DNA of 45,748 nucleotides from Gammaproteobacteria bacterium (GTDB taxonomy: Bacteria > Pseudomonadota > Gammaproteobacteria > GCA-001735895), in contig JANTFI010000007.1 of assembly GCA_024763505.1 (NCBI GenBank), positions 1 through 45,748 of the forward strand, given 5' to 3'. A program made the position numbers and the translations under genes. The notes under the pieces were generated by a model. The model did not search any database, was not told where the DNA came from, and was given only the letters and a program-made list of their open reading frames with translations. Below, in pieces: positions 21,773 to 30,796 of the stretch (position 1 is its first letter; every line of letters starts with the position of its first letter).

Positions 21773-23482
21773 ATGAAAACCAGTTGTTTTCATCTTTCCA
21801 CCCTGAAAGAAACCCCGGCTGACGCCGAAATTATCAGCCATCAGCTCATGCTGCGAGCCGGCTTGATCCGCCGCCTCGCCTCCGGGCTGTACAGCTGGAT
21901 GCCGCTGGGTCTGAAAGTCTTGCGTAAAGTGGAAAACATCGTGCGCGATGAAATGAATCGCTCAGGAGCGTTGGAACTGTTGATGCCCGCCGTGCAACCG
22001 GCCGAACTGTGGCAGGAGTCTGGTCGCTGGGAACAATACGGCCCCGAATTGCTGCGCCTGCACGATCGCCATCAGCGGGAATTCTGCATCGGTCCAACCC
22101 ATGAAGAAGTCATCACCGACCTGTTTCGCCGTGAAGTCAAAAGCTATAAACAATTACCGCTCAATTTCTACCAGATACAGACCAAGTTCCGCGATGAAAT
22201 CCGCCCTCGTTTCGGCGTTATGCGCGCACGCGAATTTCTGATGAAAGACGCCTATTCGTTTCACGTCGACGACGCTTCACTGCAACAAACCTATGATTTG
22301 ATGTTCCAGACCTATAGCCGCATCTTCGACCAGTTCGGCCTCGAATACCGACCGGTCAATGCCGATTCTGGCGCGATCGGTGGCAATGCCTCGAATGAAT
22401 TTCATGTACTGGCCGAGTCCGGTGAAGACGCGATCGCCTTTTCCGACCAGAGCGAATATGCCGCCAACATCGAGAAAGCCGAAGCCGTTTGCCTCGACCA
22501 GCGACCCGCACCCACAAAAACGATCGAAAAAATCCCGACCCCGGGTCAACACACCATTGATGCGATCGCCAATTTTCTCCACATCGATGCCAGGCAAACC
22601 GTCAAGACGCTGATCGCCTGCGGCGAAGAAGCCGGCTCTCTGGTGGCGCTGGTGTTACGTGGTGACCATGAGCTGAACACTATCAAGGCTGAAAAACTGC
22701 CCGGTGTCGCCAGCCCGTTCTGTATGGCCGACGCCGGGGACATCCGCCAACAACTGGGCTGCGATATCGGATCACTGGGCCCGGTCGGGCTGGAGATTCC
22801 GTTGTATGTCGATCACAGTGCAGCGGCGCTGGCTGACTTCGTGTGCGGTGCCAATGAAAACGACCAGCATTTTACCGGTGTGAACTGGGGACGCGACCTG
22901 CCCGAGCCCGAGTCGGTCGATATACGCAACGTGGTCGAGGGCGACCCCAGCCCGGATGGCAAGGGTCATCTGAAGATCGTCCGCGGGATTGAAGTCGGTC
23001 ATATCTTCCAACTCGGAGACAAATACTCAACAGCATTGAATGCCACCGTGCTGGATGAAAACGGCAAGGCCGTGGTCACCAAAATGGGTTGTTACGGTAT
23101 TGGCGTATCGCGCGTCGTCGCCGCCGCGATCGAGCAAAACAATGATGAATCCGGCATCATCTGGCCGCAGGCACTGGCACCATTCCAGCTCGCCATCTGC
23201 CCGATCAATTACAATAAATCCGACTTGGTCAAACAGGCTGCGGATGATTTTTATCAGCAATGCCTGCAAAACGGTATCGATGTGATTCTGGATGACCGCG
23301 GACTGCGTCCCGGCGCGATGTTTTCCGACATGGAATTGATCGGTATTCCTCACCGCATCGTATTCAGTGATCGCGGCCTGAAAGAAGGACAGTGCGAATA
23401 CAAGGGTCGCTGTGACGAACAATCGCAGGATATCGCCGCCGACAGCGCCCTCGATTTTATCTGCCAGCGCCTCGATGGATGA
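21773..23482 (+). CDS. proS: Prolyl-tRNA synthetase (bacterial type)
   Basis: ProS charges tRNA-Pro with proline. The 569-residue class II enzyme has motif 1 ([20 protein letters not shown]), motif 2 ([17 protein letters not shown] then MKDAYSFH), the inserted YbaK-like editing domain (about 240-390) that removes mischarged alanine, and motif 3 ([17 protein letters not shown]), then the anticodon-binding domain. The length is equal to the E. coli enzyme within a few residues. The start of the lytic transglycosylase gene overlaps its stop. Confidence 0.98.
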
Positions 23483-24072
23483 TGGCCGCGCTGAGAATTT
23501 CCATCACTCTCAGCCTGATTTTTGGCATCAACCTGCTGACCGCTCCGGCGCTGCGCGCGCAAACGACGGCACAACCGGTCGACCCGGAATTACGCACGCT
23601 GTTGCAACAGGCGATCAATAGCCCGAACAGCTTTGAAGACCGCTTTGATGCCGCCGTCTGGCTGCACGATATGAGCAACCGGCTGGCGCGATTTATCGAC
23701 AACCCGAAAGAACGCGTCTCGATTCTGAAGACGGTGCATTACGAAGCCTCGAGGGTCAATCTCGAACCGGAGCTGGTGCTCGCCGTAATCGAGGTGGAAA
23801 GCCATTTTGACCGCTTCGCAATCTCGGTCTCCGGCGCGCGGGGTTTGATGCAAGTGATGCCCTTCTGGCTCGATGAAATCCAGTTATCCGACAAAAACCT
23901 GTTCAAGATTCGCACCAACCTACGCATGGGCACGACCATTCTGCGTTTTTATCTGGACAAGGAAAAAGGCAATCTGACACGCGCACTGGCGCGCTACAAT
24001 GGCAGTCTCGGCAAGTTCAAATATCCGAAAAAGGTGATCACCGCACTCAATCGACACTGGTTCAAGCAATAA
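23479..24072 (+). CDS. Exported lytic transglycosylase (SLT domain)
   Basis: The 197-residue protein begins with a signal peptide (about 1-28, ending ALRAQ) and carries an SLT goose-lysozyme-like domain: catalytic glutamate E107 in [10 protein letters not shown], then [13 protein letters not shown] (118-130), and [15 protein letters not shown] with [11 protein letters not shown]. It cleaves peptidoglycan glycan strands in the periplasm. It is shorter than MltE/Slt types and lacks further domains. Its ATG overlaps the proS stop (ATGA); a second ATG at 23482 is equally usable. No lipoprotein cysteine is present. Confidence 0.92.
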
Positions 24073-24123: not shown

Positions 24124-24939
24124 TTGACCACACCCTGTCTCCAACATCTTTTCAATGAGTTGCAAAACAACGTGACCACTGCAATCGTGAACTCGACTCT
24201 TCACAACCGCTTGCGTTACCAGAAGCTGACGGTATTTGTCCTGTTATCAACTGTGCTTCATCTCGTCATTCTCTCTGCGCTGCGGTTCCCGCATCCAGCA
24301 ACGAAGAATACAAAACAGGTGATCTCCAGAGTTCACATTCACCGCACGGGCCCGCCGCCTGCTGCAGACATCAAAACAACCCAACAATCAGTTCACAGGC
24401 CTGAAAAACCGCCTCCGGCTATCGCGCATCAACCCGAACGTAAGCAGCGCACCGTGAAAGCGGATGAATCGGAGCAGCCTGAGGCCCTCAAAGAGCGCGT
24501 CAGCAGTCAGCCTCCAGCAGGCAAAGCCCGGCAAGCGATATCTGCCGACAAAACACCGCCGGGAATAAACGTGTCGCCCGCGTTGAGCCGGAGAGCTTTG
24601 CTTGACTCCCTGTCTAACAACATGGCACAGCGGCCAGCGGATTCGCTGCAAAATGATTTATTCGTTAATCGACAGCAAAAGCAAGCGCAGGAAGAAGCAA
24701 GGCGAAGATTATTCTATCCATCATCTGACAACGTAGATGAAACCGGAACAACGGTAGAACAGCAAACAGAGATCGTCGATGGCTATCGATTTTTAGAGCG
24801 CGATGGCAAGTGTTGGCTGGTACCGATGGATATCGGTTTTGATGATCTGGATACGCCGTTATGGGCGGCTTATCTGAATTGCAATACTGCTGCAAAGTCA
24901 GCTTTGGGTGAGCGCCTGGAGAAATGGATCAAGCGCTGA
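24124..24939 (+). CDS. TonB-like single-pass membrane protein, unknown function
   Basis: The 271-residue protein has a short N-terminal cytoplasmic part, a single membrane segment near 36-54 (LTVFVLLSTVLHLVILSALR), a long Pro/Lys/Gln/Glu-rich linker and a small C-terminal domain with two cysteines (C234 region, GKCWLVPMDIG, and YLNCN). The architecture recalls TonB or other envelope-spanning energy adaptors, but the C-terminal domain does not look like the TonB fold, so I leave the function open. The start is uncertain: TTG at 24124 lies behind a GGGGGG stretch, with GTG codons at 24172 and 24187 as alternatives. It converges with the gspE-like gene. Confidence 0.6.
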   Translation: MTTPCLQHLFNELQNNVTTAIVNSTLHNRLRYQKLTVFVLLSTVLHLVILSALRFPHPATKNTKQVISRVHIHRTGPPPAADIKTTQQSVHRPEKPPPAIAHQPERKQRTVKADESEQPEALKERVSSQPPAGKARQAISADKTPPGINVSPALSRRALLDSLSNNMAQRPADSLQNDLFVNRQQKQAQEEARRRLFYPSSDNVDETGTTVEQQTEIVDGYRFLERDGKCWLVPMDIGFDDLDTPLWAAYLNCNTAAKSALGERLEKWIKR

Positions 24940-24964: not shown

Positions 24965-26737
24965 TTAGCCGTCAAAACGCGGCGGTGCCACCTTCAACAC
25001 TTCCTGAATGGTGGTCAAACCCTTAGCGACCTTTTGCGCACCGGCCAGATTGAGTGGACGCATGCCGTTTTTGATCGCCTGTTTGCGAAACACTGACAAA
25101 TCAAAGTCGGCCGTGATACGCTTTTTGAGGCGATCATCGAGTGGCATCATTTCGTAAATTCCCTTGCGCCCCTGATAGCCGGTCTGGCGGCATTCCAGAC
25201 ATCCTTCTGCCTGATAGATTTGTTTCGGAGCCGGATTTGACCACGGACGGATCAAGGCATTCCATTCATCCTCGTCGACCGCATGCGGCTTCTTGCAATG
25301 CGGACACAGTGTGCGAACCAGCCGCTGCGCGACCACACCGAGCAGGGTGGCGCTGATCAGATATGGCGGAATACCGATTTCGGTCAAGCGGGCGACGGCC
25401 GAGGGGGCATCGTTGGTATGCAGGGTCGATAACACCAAATGCCCGGTCAACGCGGCTTGCACCGCCATTTCAGCGGTTTCGCGATCTCGAATCTCACCGA
25501 TCATGATGATATCCGGGTCCTGTCGCAGCAGGGTTTTCACACCGCTGGCGAAATCGACGCCGATATTGTGTTGCACCTGCATCTGGTTGAACAAGGGTTC
25601 AACCTGCTCGATCGGGTCTTCGATGGTGCATACATTGACTTCCGGCACGGCAAGCTTTTTCAGGCTGGAATACAAAGTCGTGGTTTTGCCGGAGCCGGTC
25701 GGCCCGGTCACCAGAATGATGCCGAATGGCTGGGTAATCATGTGATCCCAGGTGGCGTGCTCCTTTTTCTCAAAGCCCAGTTCCGAGAAATCGCGTAACA
25801 GCACTTCCGGATCGAATATGCGCAGTACCAGTTTTTCGCCAAACGCGGTCGGCATCGATGACAGGCGCATTTCGACTTCCTGCCCTTGCGGGGTCACAGT
25901 CTTGATACGGCCATCCTGCGGTTTGCGTTTTTCGGCCACATCCAGCCGCCCCATGATCTTGATGCGGCTGGTAACCGCAGCGGTGATATTGGCCGGAATT
26001 TCATACACCTGGTGCATCACGCCATCGATGCGAAAACGCACGTTGCCCTGTTCGCGTCGCGGCTCGATATGAATATCACTGGCACGCTGGCTGAATGCGT
26101 ATTGCAGCAGCCAGTCAACAATGCTGACGATATGCTGATCATCGGCATCGACCGAGCCGGCTTTACCCAACTCGATCAATTGCTCCAGATTCTGGATGCT
26201 GCCGGCCTGTTCCTGTTCCTTTTGCCCGGCATGTCCCATCGCGCGACTGACGCTGTAGAATTCCAGCGCATAATTTTTCAATTGCTGCGGGTTCGCCAGC
26301 ACGCGTTTGATCGGTTGTTTGATGATGCGGTGGATTTCTTCCAGCCACTCGGTATCGAACGGATCGGTGACTGCAATGGTGACTTCAGAAGGCGTGACCT
26401 TGACCGGCAGAATATTGAAACGCGCTGCATAGGCATAGGACATCAGGCTGGTGCAGGATGCCACATCCATCTTCAGCGGGTCGAAATGGAAACGCGGAAT
26501 TCCGGCCTCTTTGGCCAGCCAGTCGGTGAGAAAATCCAGCGTCAGTTTTTGCGACGGATTGGACTGATTATTCCAGTTTCGGCTGGCGATGCTTTCCAGC
26601 GGATGCAAGGTCTTGCGGTCTTTTGCCGAAGACAACGAGCTGACCATGCGCGCCTTGTCCGGCTCGACCATGCCCTGCTCCACCATCAGCTCGAGCAGTC
26701 CTTCGAGGGTGCAAATCTTGCGTGCCTGGATGACCAT
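24965..26737 (-). CDS. GspE/PilB-type secretion ATPase
   Basis: The 590-residue protein is a type II secretion/type IV pilus assembly ATPase: Walker A GPTGSGKTT (345-353), aspartate box TIEDPIE (371-377), Walker B IIMIGEIRD (410-418), histidine box TGHLVLSTLHTN (431-442) and a four-cysteine zinc motif (C478, C481, C513, C516). The N-terminal 1-200 region resembles the MshEN/T2SSE_N domain. Such hexamers power pilin or pseudopilin assembly. No GspF, secretin or pseudopilin gene is in the window. It follows the hlyD-like gene by five bases, in a run with tolC and two thioredoxins. Confidence 0.95.
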   Translation of the reverse strand: MVIQARKICTLEGLLELMVEQGMVEPDKARMVSSLSSAKDRKTLHPLESIASRNWNNQSNPSQKLTLDFLTDWLAKEAGIPRFHFDPLKMDVASCTSLMSYAYAARFNILPVKVTPSEVTIAVTDPFDTEWLEEIHRIIKQPIKRVLANPQQLKNYALEFYSVSRAMGHAGQKEQEQAGSIQNLEQLIELGKAGSVDADDQHIVSIVDWLLQYAFSQRASDIHIEPRREQGNVRFRIDGVMHQVYEIPANITAAVTSRIKIMGRLDVAEKRKPQDGRIKTVTPQGQEVEMRLSSMPTAFGEKLVLRIFDPEVLLRDFSELGFEKKEHATWDHMITQPFGIILVTGPTGSGKTTTLYSSLKKLAVPEVNVCTIEDPIEQVEPLFNQMQVQHNIGVDFASGVKTLLRQDPDIIMIGEIRDRETAEMAVQAALTGHLVLSTLHTNDAPSAVARLTEIGIPPYLISATLLGVVAQRLVRTLCPHCKKPHAVDEDEWNALIRPWSNPAPKQIYQAEGCLECRQTGYQGRKGIYEMMPLDDRLKKRITADFDLSVFRKQAIKNGMRPLNLAGAQKVAKGLTTIQEVLKVAPPRFDG

Positions 26738-26742
26738 CGGGT

Positions 26743-27507
26743 TCAGTCTTTGATCTCGATCGAGACCGGCATTTGTTCGGGAATCAATTGGTCCGTGGAA
26801 AAGTCTACCGTGATTTCATAGGCCGCGACACCGGTCGATTTTTTTACTCGCTCGAAACCCAGATAACTCACCACACCGGTAAACTTGCGCTGCTTGTAAC
26901 TGACTGTTGCCGGTAGTCCGATCAGTGAGGCGCGCCATTGCTCCGAGCTGACCAGGCCAATGGCTTTCATTTGACGCGACTCGACCAGAGTAACCAGGGG
27001 TATGGATTGATAAGCCGGACTTACATATTGACCGCGTCGTTGATGAACACGCAAAACCCGACCATCAACCGGCGACCGCAAACGGGTATTTTGCAGATCG
27101 AAGCGGGCGATGCTGGTTTCGGCTTGAGCCGCCTTGTAGGCTCCCTGTATTCGAGCCAGCTTGTTTTCGGCTGTTTTCAGAGCCACTTCAGACAGGGTAT
27201 CCCGGTCATATAATTCCAGCGCCTTTTCCAGTTCCAACTCGGCGATCTCGAGTTCCGGTTCGAGCGCTTTTTCCTGTGCCAACGCCTTGTTCAGCATGGC
27301 CTGTTCGCGACTGGCATCAAGCTCGACCAGAACCTCTCCCTGCTTGACACGCTGACCGGCTTTGACATGAACCTGCTGGATAATTCCGGCGGAGCGGGCA
27401 TTGAGCGCGAAGTGGTCGGAAAATTTGCTGAAACCGTTCAGACTCAGAGCTGAAGCCGAAGACGCAAACAACGGGCCAGCCAGTAAAATCAAAAGTATCC
27501 AGTTCAT
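26743..27507 (-). CDS. HlyD/RND-type membrane fusion (adaptor) protein
   Basis: The 254-residue protein has a signal peptide (MNWILLILLAGPLFASSASA), a lipoyl half-motif IIQQVHVKAGQRVKQGEVLV, a coiled-coil hairpin about 70-130 (KALAQEKALEPELEIAELEL onward) and the second lipoyl half RLRSPVDGRVLRVHQRRGQY. These are the usual features of the periplasmic adaptor that joins an inner-membrane pump to a TolC channel. It is shorter than most RND adaptors. It overlaps tolC by four bases; no pump gene follows, instead a GspE-type ATPase. Confidence 0.9.
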   Translation of the reverse strand: MNWILLILLAGPLFASSASALSLNGFSKFSDHFALNARSAGIIQQVHVKAGQRVKQGEVLVELDASREQAMLNKALAQEKALEPELEIAELELEKALELYDRDTLSEVALKTAENKLARIQGAYKAAQAETSIARFDLQNTRLRSPVDGRVLRVHQRRGQYVSPAYQSIPLVTLVESRQMKAIGLVSSEQWRASLIGLPATVSYKQRKFTGVVSYLGFERVKKSTGVAAYEITVDFSTDQLIPEQMPVSIEIKD

Positions 27508-28817
27508 CCGTTGTTGTCCTCTTTGTTCGTGATCAATTGATTCAGGTACTCACTGCCAACCAGTGTCTCCAGTTTTCGTAACGACATTTCAAGCGCAAAG
27601 CGGGCTTGCCAGGCTTTACGTCGGCTTTCGGAAAACTGAACCATCGAATTACCCAGATCGCTCTTGAATTCAAGTTCGTACTCCGCCCGGCTTTTTTCCA
27701 GTGTCAGGTCGCGGAATTCCTGATTGAAGTCTTCTCCTTCTACCCGCAAACTGTTGAACCGGATTTGTTGCCAAAGCTTCAGCACTTCGAGCCTGATTTC
27801 CGATTTTACACGTAAGATGCTGGCTAATTGTTGTTGATATCGGGCACTGGCCAAGCGAACGGCTGAACGCGTTCCCGAGCCTGCATAAAGCGGTACATCC
27901 AGATAAATACTGGCACGCCAGTCATCCCGGGTCGAGGACTCCTTGACATAATCCGCCAGCTCCAACTCAGCGTCCAGCTTCGCGCTGCTGGTATTTTTGG
28001 CAACCGCAATCTGCTGGCGCGCGATTTCCAGCTTCTTGCGTTCTATTTCCAGTTCAAGACTGTGTTCAAACGCTTGTTGTACCAGTGCTTCCACATCATC
28101 GCCGGGATTAATTTTGTCTGCCAGTTCGGGCACTTCCAACTCATCCGGCGGACTGTCGGCATAACCCAGCGTTTCCGCCAGCATGACCCGGGTCAGGCGC
28201 TGCAGGTTTTCACTGTTATAGCGGTTTTGCCGGATTCGCTCGTACGCGGTCCGGGTTTCCAGTACTTCGAGGTCGGATGCCAGGCCCAGTAATTGATTTT
28301 CTCGGGTCCGGTCAAAGCGGATAAAGCCGATCGCCAGTTCTTCGTTATCCCTTAGATACTGGTTGTCGGCATTTAGCACATCGAAAAACTGTTGCCGGAT
28401 CGACAACTTGCGTTGTTCGATCAGGTAATTTTTTTCCAGCCTTTTTAATTCCACTTGGAGTCTGGACAAATCCTCACTGGCATCGAGTTTGCCAAAATCA
28501 TACAGCGGCTTTCTGACAAACAGCTTAATCGCGCTGTCATTTTCAGCATCATCCGCGCCGGATTGCTTGATTGCACGCAGGCGGCCGTTCAGATTGATCG
28601 TGAAATCATTGCCGGCCGCAGTTTGCTCGGCCTCGGCTATCGATTGCTGCAGATTCTGATCGGCGTTGATATTTTGATAATGCCCCGGGTTTGCGGCGAG
28701 GCTCAGGGCGGCATCGAGAGTCAATGGTTCCGGCAGGGCATCTGGCTCAGCCGCGTAAACACGAAAACAGAGTAAAATACCGACCAGCATGGGCGGAGTG
28801 TGGAACATTTTTTTCAT
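27504..28817 (-). CDS. TolC-family outer-membrane channel
   Basis: The 437-residue protein begins with a signal peptide (about 1-22, ending in RVYAAEPD) and shows the two OEP repeat halves of TolC-type proteins, long helices with NYLIEQRKLSIRQQFFDVLN and LEIERKKLEIARQQIAVAKN, plus AELELADYVKESSTRDDWRA leading into the LDVPLYAGSGTRSAV segment. The trimer would form an outer-membrane and periplasmic tunnel. It lies 14 bases after the thioredoxin gene and overlaps the adaptor gene, so the whole block is probably one transcript. Confidence 0.92.
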   Translation of the reverse strand: MKKMFHTPPMLVGILLCFRVYAAEPDALPEPLTLDAALSLAANPGHYQNINADQNLQQSIAEAEQTAAGNDFTINLNGRLRAIKQSGADDAENDSAIKLFVRKPLYDFGKLDASEDLSRLQVELKRLEKNYLIEQRKLSIRQQFFDVLNADNQYLRDNEELAIGFIRFDRTRENQLLGLASDLEVLETRTAYERIRQNRYNSENLQRLTRVMLAETLGYADSPPDELEVPELADKINPGDDVEALVQQAFEHSLELEIERKKLEIARQQIAVAKNTSSAKLDAELELADYVKESSTRDDWRASIYLDVPLYAGSGTRSAVRLASARYQQQLASILRVKSEIRLEVLKLWQQIRFNSLRVEGEDFNQEFRDLTLEKSRAEYELEFKSDLGNSMVQFSESRRKAWQARFALEMSLRKLETLVGSEYLNQLITNKEDNNG

Positions 28818-28831
28818 TGAGCCCGACCGGT

Positions 28832-29398
28832 CTAGTTGATTGCTTTTTGTTTTTTCTTGAGCCTTTTGTACTTCCCGAACCGGATGTTGCGTCCATTCTT
28901 GTCTTTTAGTTTATAAACGCCTTTCAAGTAATATTCCGCCAGCCACATAAACTCTTCCGGGCCAGAGGTCGCGCCGGTATAGCGCACTACCATATTGCCA
29001 TCAAGATCATAAAAAGCCATCACTGGTGTGGCACGAACCCGGGTTTTACTGGCGAATTCTTTTTGCATCATTTCTTCGCCCTTGAAGTCCACCAGTTCCA
29101 GATCCCCTTCGATATCAATTGCCAAAGAACGAAAGTTTTCATTAAAATAATCCTGGATCTCCGGTTGGTTCAAAACCGTTTTTTTCATCCGGTGACAAAA
29201 AGGGCATTCATCCATTTCAAAGAAAATAAAGATGCCTTTTTTATTCTCTTCGCGGGCAATTTCCAGTTCCTCGGTCAAATCTCCCAGACTTTGACTAAAG
29301 AAATGGGTATAAGGGTCACGCGGTATGGCAGCCTGTGCAGTAATCGCGAAAAGAAGAAGGATAAAAAGGGAAAACCCAGACTTGGGAAACTGTTTCAT
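28832..29398 (-). CDS. Exported thioredoxin-fold protein (SoxW-like)
   Basis: The 188-residue protein has an N-terminal signal peptide (about 1-24), a thioredoxin fold with redox motif CPFC (C65, C68, in EMDECPFCHRM), the cis-proline segment RVRATPVMAFYDLDG, and a basic C-terminal tail. It resembles SoxW-like and other periplasmic thioredoxins that use CxxC chemistry to reduce or hold disulfides. It sits between tlpA and tolC in the same direction. Specific role not known. Confidence 0.85.
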   Translation of the reverse strand: MKQFPKSGFSLFILLLFAITAQAAIPRDPYTHFFSQSLGDLTEELEIAREENKKGIFIFFEMDECPFCHRMKKTVLNQPEIQDYFNENFRSLAIDIEGDLELVDFKGEEMMQKEFASKTRVRATPVMAFYDLDGNMVVRYTGATSGPEEFMWLAEYYLKGVYKLKDKNGRNIRFGKYKRLKKKQKAIN

Positions 29399-29478
29399 GA
29401 CCTGTTGTTTACCGTATTCTGTTGGTGGTTATTCGATGGGCGAACCGGACTAACAGTTTATCTCACTGATTCCGTCAC

Positions 29479-29970
29479 TTAATCCGACCCTTGTTTATTA
29501 TCAGATTTGTGTTTAGCTTCCCATTTCTTGATGAAATTTTCAATCATTTCACGGGTGACCGAACCGACCTGCCGGGCCACCACAGTACCTTGTGGAGACA
29601 ACAGAAACGTGGTCGGCAACCCTGGCACTTGCCCCAATTCGGTTTGACTGACCGGTCCCACTTTGGCATTGGGGTAGTCAATAAAATAGTCTTCCAGAAA
29701 CGCCTTTACCTCTTCATCAGGAATGGCCTCGGTGTTCAGCCCGATTACCACGGCATCAGTTTTGGCATGTGCATCATGGAAAGACTGTAATTCAGGCATT
29801 TCCTCACGACAGGGTGGGCACCAGGTCGCCCAGTAGTTTACCAGAACCCATTTGCCTTTATAGTCAGAGATCTGGAGCGATTTTCCATTGAGGTCTGTCA
29901 GACTCATGTCAACTGCGGCTGAGCCAAAAGACAGGGTCGATAACAGCAATAACAGGGCAATTTTTTTCAT
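29479..29970 (-). CDS. TlpA/ResA-like periplasmic thioredoxin
   Basis: The 163-residue protein begins with a signal peptide (MKKIALLLLLSTLSFGSAAV) and carries the TlpA-type motif WATWCPPCREEMPEL with redox cysteines C51 and C54, and a cis-proline GLPTTFLLS. These periplasmic proteins reduce disulfides of cytochrome c maturation or other exported substrates. It opens the minus-strand run tlpA-thioredoxin-tolC-hlyD-gspE and is 80 bases from the next gene. A candidate AT-rich promoter region lies upstream, but no clear hexamer pair was found. Confidence 0.9.
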   Translation of the reverse strand: MKKIALLLLLSTLSFGSAAVDMSLTDLNGKSLQISDYKGKWVLVNYWATWCPPCREEMPELQSFHDAHAKTDAVVIGLNTEAIPDEEVKAFLEDYFIDYPNAKVGPVSQTELGQVPGLPTTFLLSPQGTVVARQVGSVTREMIENFIKKWEAKHKSDNKQGSD

Positions 29971-30056: not shown

Positions 30057-30084
30057 ATAAAAAAAGCCCGCAAAAGCGAGCTTT
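30057..30084 (-). terminator. Rho-independent terminator after the LysM lipoprotein gene
   Basis: On the minus strand AAAGCTCGC (30084-30076) and GCGGGCTTT (30071-30063), with one G-U pair and a TTTT loop, run into a T-tract of about seven. It lies 26 bases past the stop of the gene at 30110-30796 and separates it from tlpA. Confidence 0.85.
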
Positions 30085-30109
30085 TCGATACGGCATTAAA
30101 GCAGTTAAA

Positions 30110-30796
30110 CTACTGTGCCAGATAATCCTGATCAGAGGCTTCGGTTTCGCCAATAGTCCAGGCACCGCGAGTCTTGGCATGTTGTACCGCAGCATCAATC
30201 TCGGCGTCTGTAGCAGAAGGGATACTGAAAACCTGACCAGCATAAATCAGGTCGGCATCCTTGATCTGGTCAGAATTGGCTTTGTAGATCAATGGCCATT
30301 GGTACGGGTTTCCATAGGTCTCGTCCTTGCCGGAAATATTCCAGAGATTATCACCGGAAACGACTGTGTATTCGCCACCACCAGCATTACTCATGCTGGA
30401 GTTATTCATACCCATTGCCATGCCACTTTCTGTACTGCCATGCATTTCGTTATAGCGCTTGGTTTCAGCATGGTATTGAGCAATTGCATCATTCGCTTGC
30501 TCTGCGGCCATATTGGCCAGTTTAACGGCTTTATCGTTGTCTCCGGCGGCGGCAGCTTTTTCAGCGGCTGCGATCAATTTCTTGGTATCGCGCCATTCAT
30601 AACCCAGTTTTGCAGCCCGGGCATTCTTGATTTTGGCGGAATAAATGGCATTCTTGGCGGCCGCATTCGGTCCTTTCTGGGCTTCAGTCATCGGCTCTTT
30701 AGCCGGCGCCGGCTCTTCTTTACTGGCACAACCAGCAACAAGTCCGGTGGAAAGAACTGCAATGGTTGCCAACTTCAGGAATTCTGTTTTTTTCAT
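30110..30796 (-). CDS. Lipoprotein with C-terminal LysM domain
   Basis: The 228-residue protein has a lipoprotein signal peptide with lipobox LVAGC (C23), an alanine-rich helical region resembling DUF4398 (about 45-110), a Gly/Met/Asn/Ser linker, and a LysM domain (about 142-193, YTVVSGDNLWNISGKDETYG) that should bind peptidoglycan. It would anchor in the outer membrane and touch the wall. The ATG follows a GGAGAA ribosome binding site and the gene is followed by its own terminator, so it is monocistronic. The role is structural by inference. Confidence 0.88.
   Translation of the reverse strand: MKKTEFLKLATIAVLSTGLVAGCASKEEPAPAKEPMTEAQKGPNAAAKNAIYSAKIKNARAAKLGYEWRDTKKLIAAAEKAAAAGDNDKAVKLANMAAEQANDAIAQYHAETKRYNEMHGSTESGMAMGMNNSSMSNAGGGEYTVVSGDNLWNISGKDETYGNPYQWPLIYKANSDQIKDADLIYAGQVFSIPSATDAEIDAAVQHAKTRGAWTIGETEASDQDYLAQ

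Follow-up and report, generated by a model that had tools for sequence, protein, structure and literature searches.

The five-gene run described here lies on the minus strand of a 45,748-nucleotide stretch of DNA (the window; contig JANTFI010000007.1) from a member of the Gammaproteobacteria. The run opens with tlpA (29479-29970), which encodes an exported TlpA/ResA-like thioredoxin with a WCPPC active site. It is followed by trxS (28832-29398), encoding a second exported thioredoxin, of the Thioredoxin_2/DsbH-like type, with a CPFC active site, then by tolC (27504-28817), encoding a TolC-like outer-membrane factor (OMF), and by hlyD (26743-27507), encoding a short periplasmic adaptor of 254 residues. 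The fifth gene, tfpB (24965-26737), encodes a 590-residue ATPase assigned below to the second type IV pilus extension motor. From tlpA to tfpB the genes are separated by 80 bp, 14 bp, a 4-bp overlap and 5 bp, and their products match, in the same order, the Pfam families AhpC-TSA/Redoxin, Thioredoxin_2, OEP, HlyD_3/Biotin_lipoyl_2 and T2SSE with MshEN. Open reading frame calls, Pfam and translation thus agree in full with the genes, strand, motifs and gaps given in an earlier sequence-only reading of this DNA. A strong, terminator-like hairpin on the minus strand (30061-30086) separates the upstream lysM gene from tlpA; since it ends lysM, tlpA is probably the first gene of a transcript. The run itself contains no gene for a pump, a platform protein or a pilin, no inner-membrane transporter is encoded there with TolC and the adaptor to complete a tripartite efflux system, and the window contains no match to the GspF domain. 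The sequence-only reading had stated that both partners, of the channel and of the ATPase, are absent. This is correct for the run but not for the genome, where pilB-pilC and a resistance-nodulation-division (RND) transporter with its adaptor are encoded on other contigs.

The first four genes form a conserved unit to which the fifth does not belong. A class-wide sample of 369 Gammaproteobacteria includes 94 genomes with trxS, and 62 trxS loci were read. The tolC gene follows trxS in 60 of them, hlyD is present in 56, and tlpA lies directly upstream in 36; the four-gene unit is kept in dozens of families. The earlier proposal that the redox proteins and the export channel belong together is therefore supported for these four genes of the five. 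Among the 53 loci with at least 5 kb of downstream sequence, tfpB occurs within 6 kb downstream in only 4 and is absent nearby in 49. Across the whole sample trxS and tfpB are unassociated (odds ratio (OR) 1.16, p 0.33). As tfpB is also found without the unit, an adaptor-TolC channel feeding a pilus engine, as had been suggested, is not borne out. TfpB is an already known protein and is independent of tlpA-trxS-tolC-hlyD.

The manner in which the two came to adjoin can be followed in 28 regions around tfpB homologues in related genomes. The frame purM-DUF2066-hda-wrbA-arsC-lysM-tlpA-...-tfpB-SLT-proS is kept in most of these regions, and the trio trxS-tolC-hlyD is either entirely present between tlpA and tfpB or entirely missing. 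In the window one border of this interval is the lysM lipoprotein gene (30110-30796, minus strand), and the other is formed by a lytic transglycosylase gene (SLT, 23479-24072, plus strand) and proS (21773-23482, plus strand). The trio occupies the interval in the sampled genomes of the window's genus (g1), of genus g2 and in one genome of genus g3 (G011). The remaining g3 genomes mostly have tfpB directly next to tlpA or lysM, with no trio between them, and several g3 genomes carry the trio at another locus, beside an RND gene pair. All five genes in order were also found in families f43 and f94. The search for the same order in other genomes, which the sequence-only reading had proposed, is thus positive for g1, g2, G011, f43 and f94 and negative for most trxS loci of the class; the five-gene order is more than chance. 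Parts of the frame (wrbA, arsC, SLT or proS) surround 35 of the 62 trxS loci. In genome G039 the four-gene unit stands beside arsC and wrbA, and tfpB is not detected at E 1e-160. In G151 tfpB lies between proS and lysM, and the trio is elsewhere in the genome. A genome scan with the TolC family located the trio in further genomes with no tfpB nearby, including the Olavius algarvensis Gamma 3 symbiont. The TrxS tree is weakly supported, and in the TolC tree G011, whose trio adjoins tfpB, stands next to the relocated copies of g3. The history of the trio is likely to be one of vertical descent with relocation and loss.

The ATPase scores 909.7 bits against the NCBIfam model NF053534 (TfpB), above the whole-protein cut-off of 850, and its translation contains the Walker A motif GPTGSGKTT and the zinc-binding tetracysteine CPHC...CLEC. 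It fails the GspE equivalog cut-off (536 against 630.25) and falls below that of canonical PilB. A canonical PilB (870.6 bits, cut-off 675.65) is encoded on contig C39 of the same genome with PilC adjoining, and the genome also contains PilT-family ATPases and further GspE-like ATPases with GspF partners. The genome-wide search for platform and pump partners that had been called for was thus successful, for the platform here and for the pump on contig C11, as described below. In Acinetobacter baylyi, TfpB is a second pilus extension motor besides PilB, and its gene is not syntenic with pilC (PMC8213720). The present protein resembles it in the full-length match over a curated cut-off, in the coexistence with PilB and in a gene placed apart from pilC. 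It differs in that its gene adjoins tolC-hlyD and in that its pilus role is deduced from sequence. The match to NF053534 and the pilB-pilC pair on another contig give the ATPase a plausible machine outside the run, so that it plausibly serves the pilC/pilB machine and not the four-gene unit. The alternative that the earlier reading had offered, an ATPase serving an unlinked machine among coincidental neighbors, is consequently upheld for the ATPase, but not for the other four genes, which are a conserved unit.

The unit is strongly linked to thiosulfate oxidation by the Sox pathway. The soxB gene is present in 87 of the 94 trxS genomes, the window's own among them (OR 42, p 1.5e-34). With each family counted once (181 families, taken from the genome labels and tallied by hand, this being the sole correction for kinship), soxB is found in 47 of 49 families with trxS versus 30 of 132 without it (p 2e-20). 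In a set of 331 genomes, worked out from the genome labels and cross-tabulated with dsrA, trxS occurs in 55 of 93 genomes with both sox and dsr, in 22 of 41 with sox only, in 3 of 12 with dsr only and in 3 of 185 with neither. The link to soxB is independent of dsrA. An alternative link, to sulfur storage by way of reverse Dsr, was considered and rejected, being weaker than that to soxB and not independent of it.

Among the closest known counterparts of TrxS are SoxS and SoxW, the periplasmic thioredoxins of Sox systems. In common with these, TrxS is exported and tied to soxB, and it has a relative within a sox cluster: in G190 (L295:6050-7836) a protein with a lipoprotein-like N-terminus and a CPYC motif is encoded a few kb past soxB, and the gene that follows it directly is for a TsuA/YeeE-like transporter. 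A comparable neighbor is known for SoxS, as soxS lies near soxT (PMC11582611). The differences are that trxS of the run is outside the sox cluster and bound to tolC-hlyD, and that a phmmer search of the PDB at E 0.001 matched TrxS to 4fyb and 2kuc only and to no SoxS structure. A solved structure of SoxS reportedly exists, and TrxS was not accepted as SoxS itself for want of a match to it; TrxS may nevertheless work like SoxS. Its fold matches the DsbC-like protein of H. pylori (4fyb), DsbH (2ju5) and the C-terminal domain of DsbD. TrxS belongs to the same Pfam family as DsbH, Thioredoxin_2, but scores 31.5 bits against the DsbH equivalog cut-off of 190.

The two export proteins of the unit are poor candidates for thioredoxin clients. 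Mature TolC contains no cysteine, the C-terminal 380 residues are cysteine-free in 57 of 57 homologues, and HlyD is cysteine-free in 45 of 50. Since TolC and nearly all adaptors are free of cysteine in their mature parts, folding them is not the task of the thioredoxins, and both were ruled out as clients. The short HlyD consists of a signal peptide, a lipoyl domain, an alpha-hairpin and a beta-barrel (AlphaFold model, pLDDT 87.6), and has no membrane-proximal domain, lipobox or later transmembrane helix. Its fold matches MacA and AcrA.

A candidate for the missing transporter is encoded elsewhere. An RND orthologue with a full-length adaptor of the membrane fusion protein (MFP) type is present on contig C11 of the window's genome (G000:C11:25185-29470), and this RND protein is 79% identical to that of the related genome G004. 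In relatives the RND pair lies close to the trio, beyond proS in G003, G004, G008 and G010, and at the relocated g3 loci about 1-5 kb from trxS. Over the 369 genomes trxS and the RND gene are shared by 55 (OR 7.2, p 2.7e-14), and the association persists within soxB-positive genomes (OR 5.0, p 7e-6). An OMF adjoining the RND pair was not detected in 25 of 25 genomes with the trio and in 22 of 24 without it by phmmer with a few OMFs, a search that divergent ones could escape. In many families the RND-MFP pair was also observed next to proS, whether the trio is present or not (L199, L206, L259, L309, L310, L321, L329, L333, L334), which suggests that the place of this pair beside proS is an old neighborhood.

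For the pump, a close known system is TriABC-OpmH of Pseudomonas aeruginosa, in which TriABC uses two adaptors (PMC8277102). The likeness lies in the proposed service of an RND pump by two adaptors, with the gene of its TolC-type channel at a distance, and in the full-length MFP and the short HlyD both matching TriA/TriB (6vej_P) best in the PDB. Unlike in TriABC-OpmH, the second adaptor is a short, soluble protein whose gene accompanies those of TolC and the thioredoxins instead of the pump genes, and the RND protein is only distantly similar to TriC (206 bits), matching MdtB and MexK slightly better.

We consider it probable, with some reserve, that the run is a juxtaposition of two units: tfpB, and a Sox-associated redox-efflux module, tlpA-trxS-tolC-hlyD, working with a two-adaptor pump of the TriABC-OpmH kind. 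This reading is founded on the identities of the genes, the conservation of the unit, its independence from tfpB, its co-occurrence with soxB and the RND pair, and the presence of pilB-pilC and the RND pair in the genome. From these we infer the physical assembly of the pump, the clients of the thioredoxins and the exported substrate. TlpA and TrxS would keep periplasmic thiols reduced, probably those of Sox sulfur carriers or related persulfide proteins, and their clients may be described more broadly as sulfur-carrying or disulfide-prone proteins of the periplasm. With the TolC-like channel and the short soluble adaptor added, the RND pump encoded on contig C11 would be complete; it would then combine a TolC-type channel with two unlike adaptors, in the manner of TriABC-OpmH, and remove a toxic by-product linked to sulfur. 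TfpB would be the second extension motor of the pilC/pilB machine encoded elsewhere. A more specific proposal, that the unit is an undescribed module of thiosulfate oxidation in which thiol reduction of sulfur carriers is coupled to outer-membrane export of sulfane sulfur or a toxic by-product by way of an RND pump whose second adaptor is split off and soluble, is put forward tentatively.

Several observations weigh against this reading. The RND orthologue is absent from 39 of the 94 trxS genomes and from two genomes of the window's own genus that are 96-98% complete, and the partnership is therefore not obligate; conversely, 45 genomes with the RND orthologue have no trxS. No trxS is found in 63 of the 150 soxB-positive genomes, the association tests take account of phylogeny only through the count by families, and TrxS has no detectable sequence match to the solved SoxS. 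Finally, tfpB and the unit adjoin in about four families, which is above the expectation from random placement, because both independently occupy the lysM-proS interval.

Among the alternatives the strongest, somewhat short of an even chance, is that TolC and the short adaptor work with some other transporter of the inner membrane, whether a different RND protein or one of the ABC or MFS type, and that the RND pair merely shares the proS neighborhood. The lack of the RND orthologue in 15 of 49 trxS families and the proS-flanking pairs of trio-less genomes agree with this. The trio and the RND pair are, however, again neighbors in g3 at a locus away from both tfpB and proS, their association holds within soxB-positive genomes, and the RND pair is without an OMF of its own. 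It is rather unlikely that the unit is an ordinary efflux accessory operon for stress or drug tolerance, common in lineages rich in sulfur oxidizers, with thioredoxins serving general envelope disulfides. The TolC and MFP families are mostly efflux parts, the sampled genomes share phylogeny, and sox-positive genomes without the unit are common; yet soxB is missing from just 7 of the 94 trxS genomes, several of these 7 being incomplete, and the association with soxB survives the count by families, whereas tfpB from the same sample shows none. A single five-gene composite machine, in which TfpB would drive export or the assembly of pili by way of the adaptor-TolC channel, could draw on the short gaps, the order kept in families f1, f43 and f94 and the similar coordinates in f138, but it is very improbable and is rejected on the linkage and co-occurrence data, including the separate sites in G151 and the trio-less tfpB loci of most g3 genomes, and on the pilus extension function of the TfpB family (PMC8213720).

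Every protein family of the unit is known singly; the four-gene unit and its Sox linkage, of which no description was found in the open-access literature searched, appear to be undescribed. In Sulfurovum, HlyD and TolC genes are reported to be induced by S0, which was read as polysaccharide or biofilm export (PMC10045233). The puzzling "pumpless" TolC-adaptor operon occurs widely, and its distribution follows the Sox pathway, not the adjoining pilus motor. The ways in which sulfur oxidizers deal with reactive sulfane sulfur between the periplasm and the outside, its possible export included, are poorly understood, and a specific set of four genes with a candidate pump is now open to deletion and testing. 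The unit would also exemplify an adaptor whose gene is separate from those of its pump, and the locus shows how TfpB came to stand beside unrelated genes.

Some further features of these loci were noted. Directly upstream of the relocated g3 trio is a gene for a secreted protein with Met-Asn-Pro/Tyr (MNPxxY) repeats (L083:8678-9289, with orthologues in L084-L094 and L202), which has no family match; its neighbors are a MotA/ExbB-like gene and two unknown genes. In the Olavius algarvensis Gamma 3 symbiont (G021) the hlyD site (L083:11295-12056) crosses a run of N and continues as a transposase-like frame, and this genome's tolC and tfpB also appear interrupted or split, possibly through decay of the system or through assembly problems. 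A suspected DsbD near the operon in G033 and G039 was dismissed, the 612-residue neighbors being an acyl-CoA ligase and an unknown protein. Between SLT and tfpB in the window lies an open reading frame for 271 residues with a TTG start (24124-24939), which matches no Pfam or NCBIfam family and for which the related tfpB loci yielded no homologue. The N-terminal half of the lysM lipoprotein resembles the model of the SoxAX-binding protein (77.5 bits, below the cut-off of 95), a hint of a further Sox link in the neighborhood.

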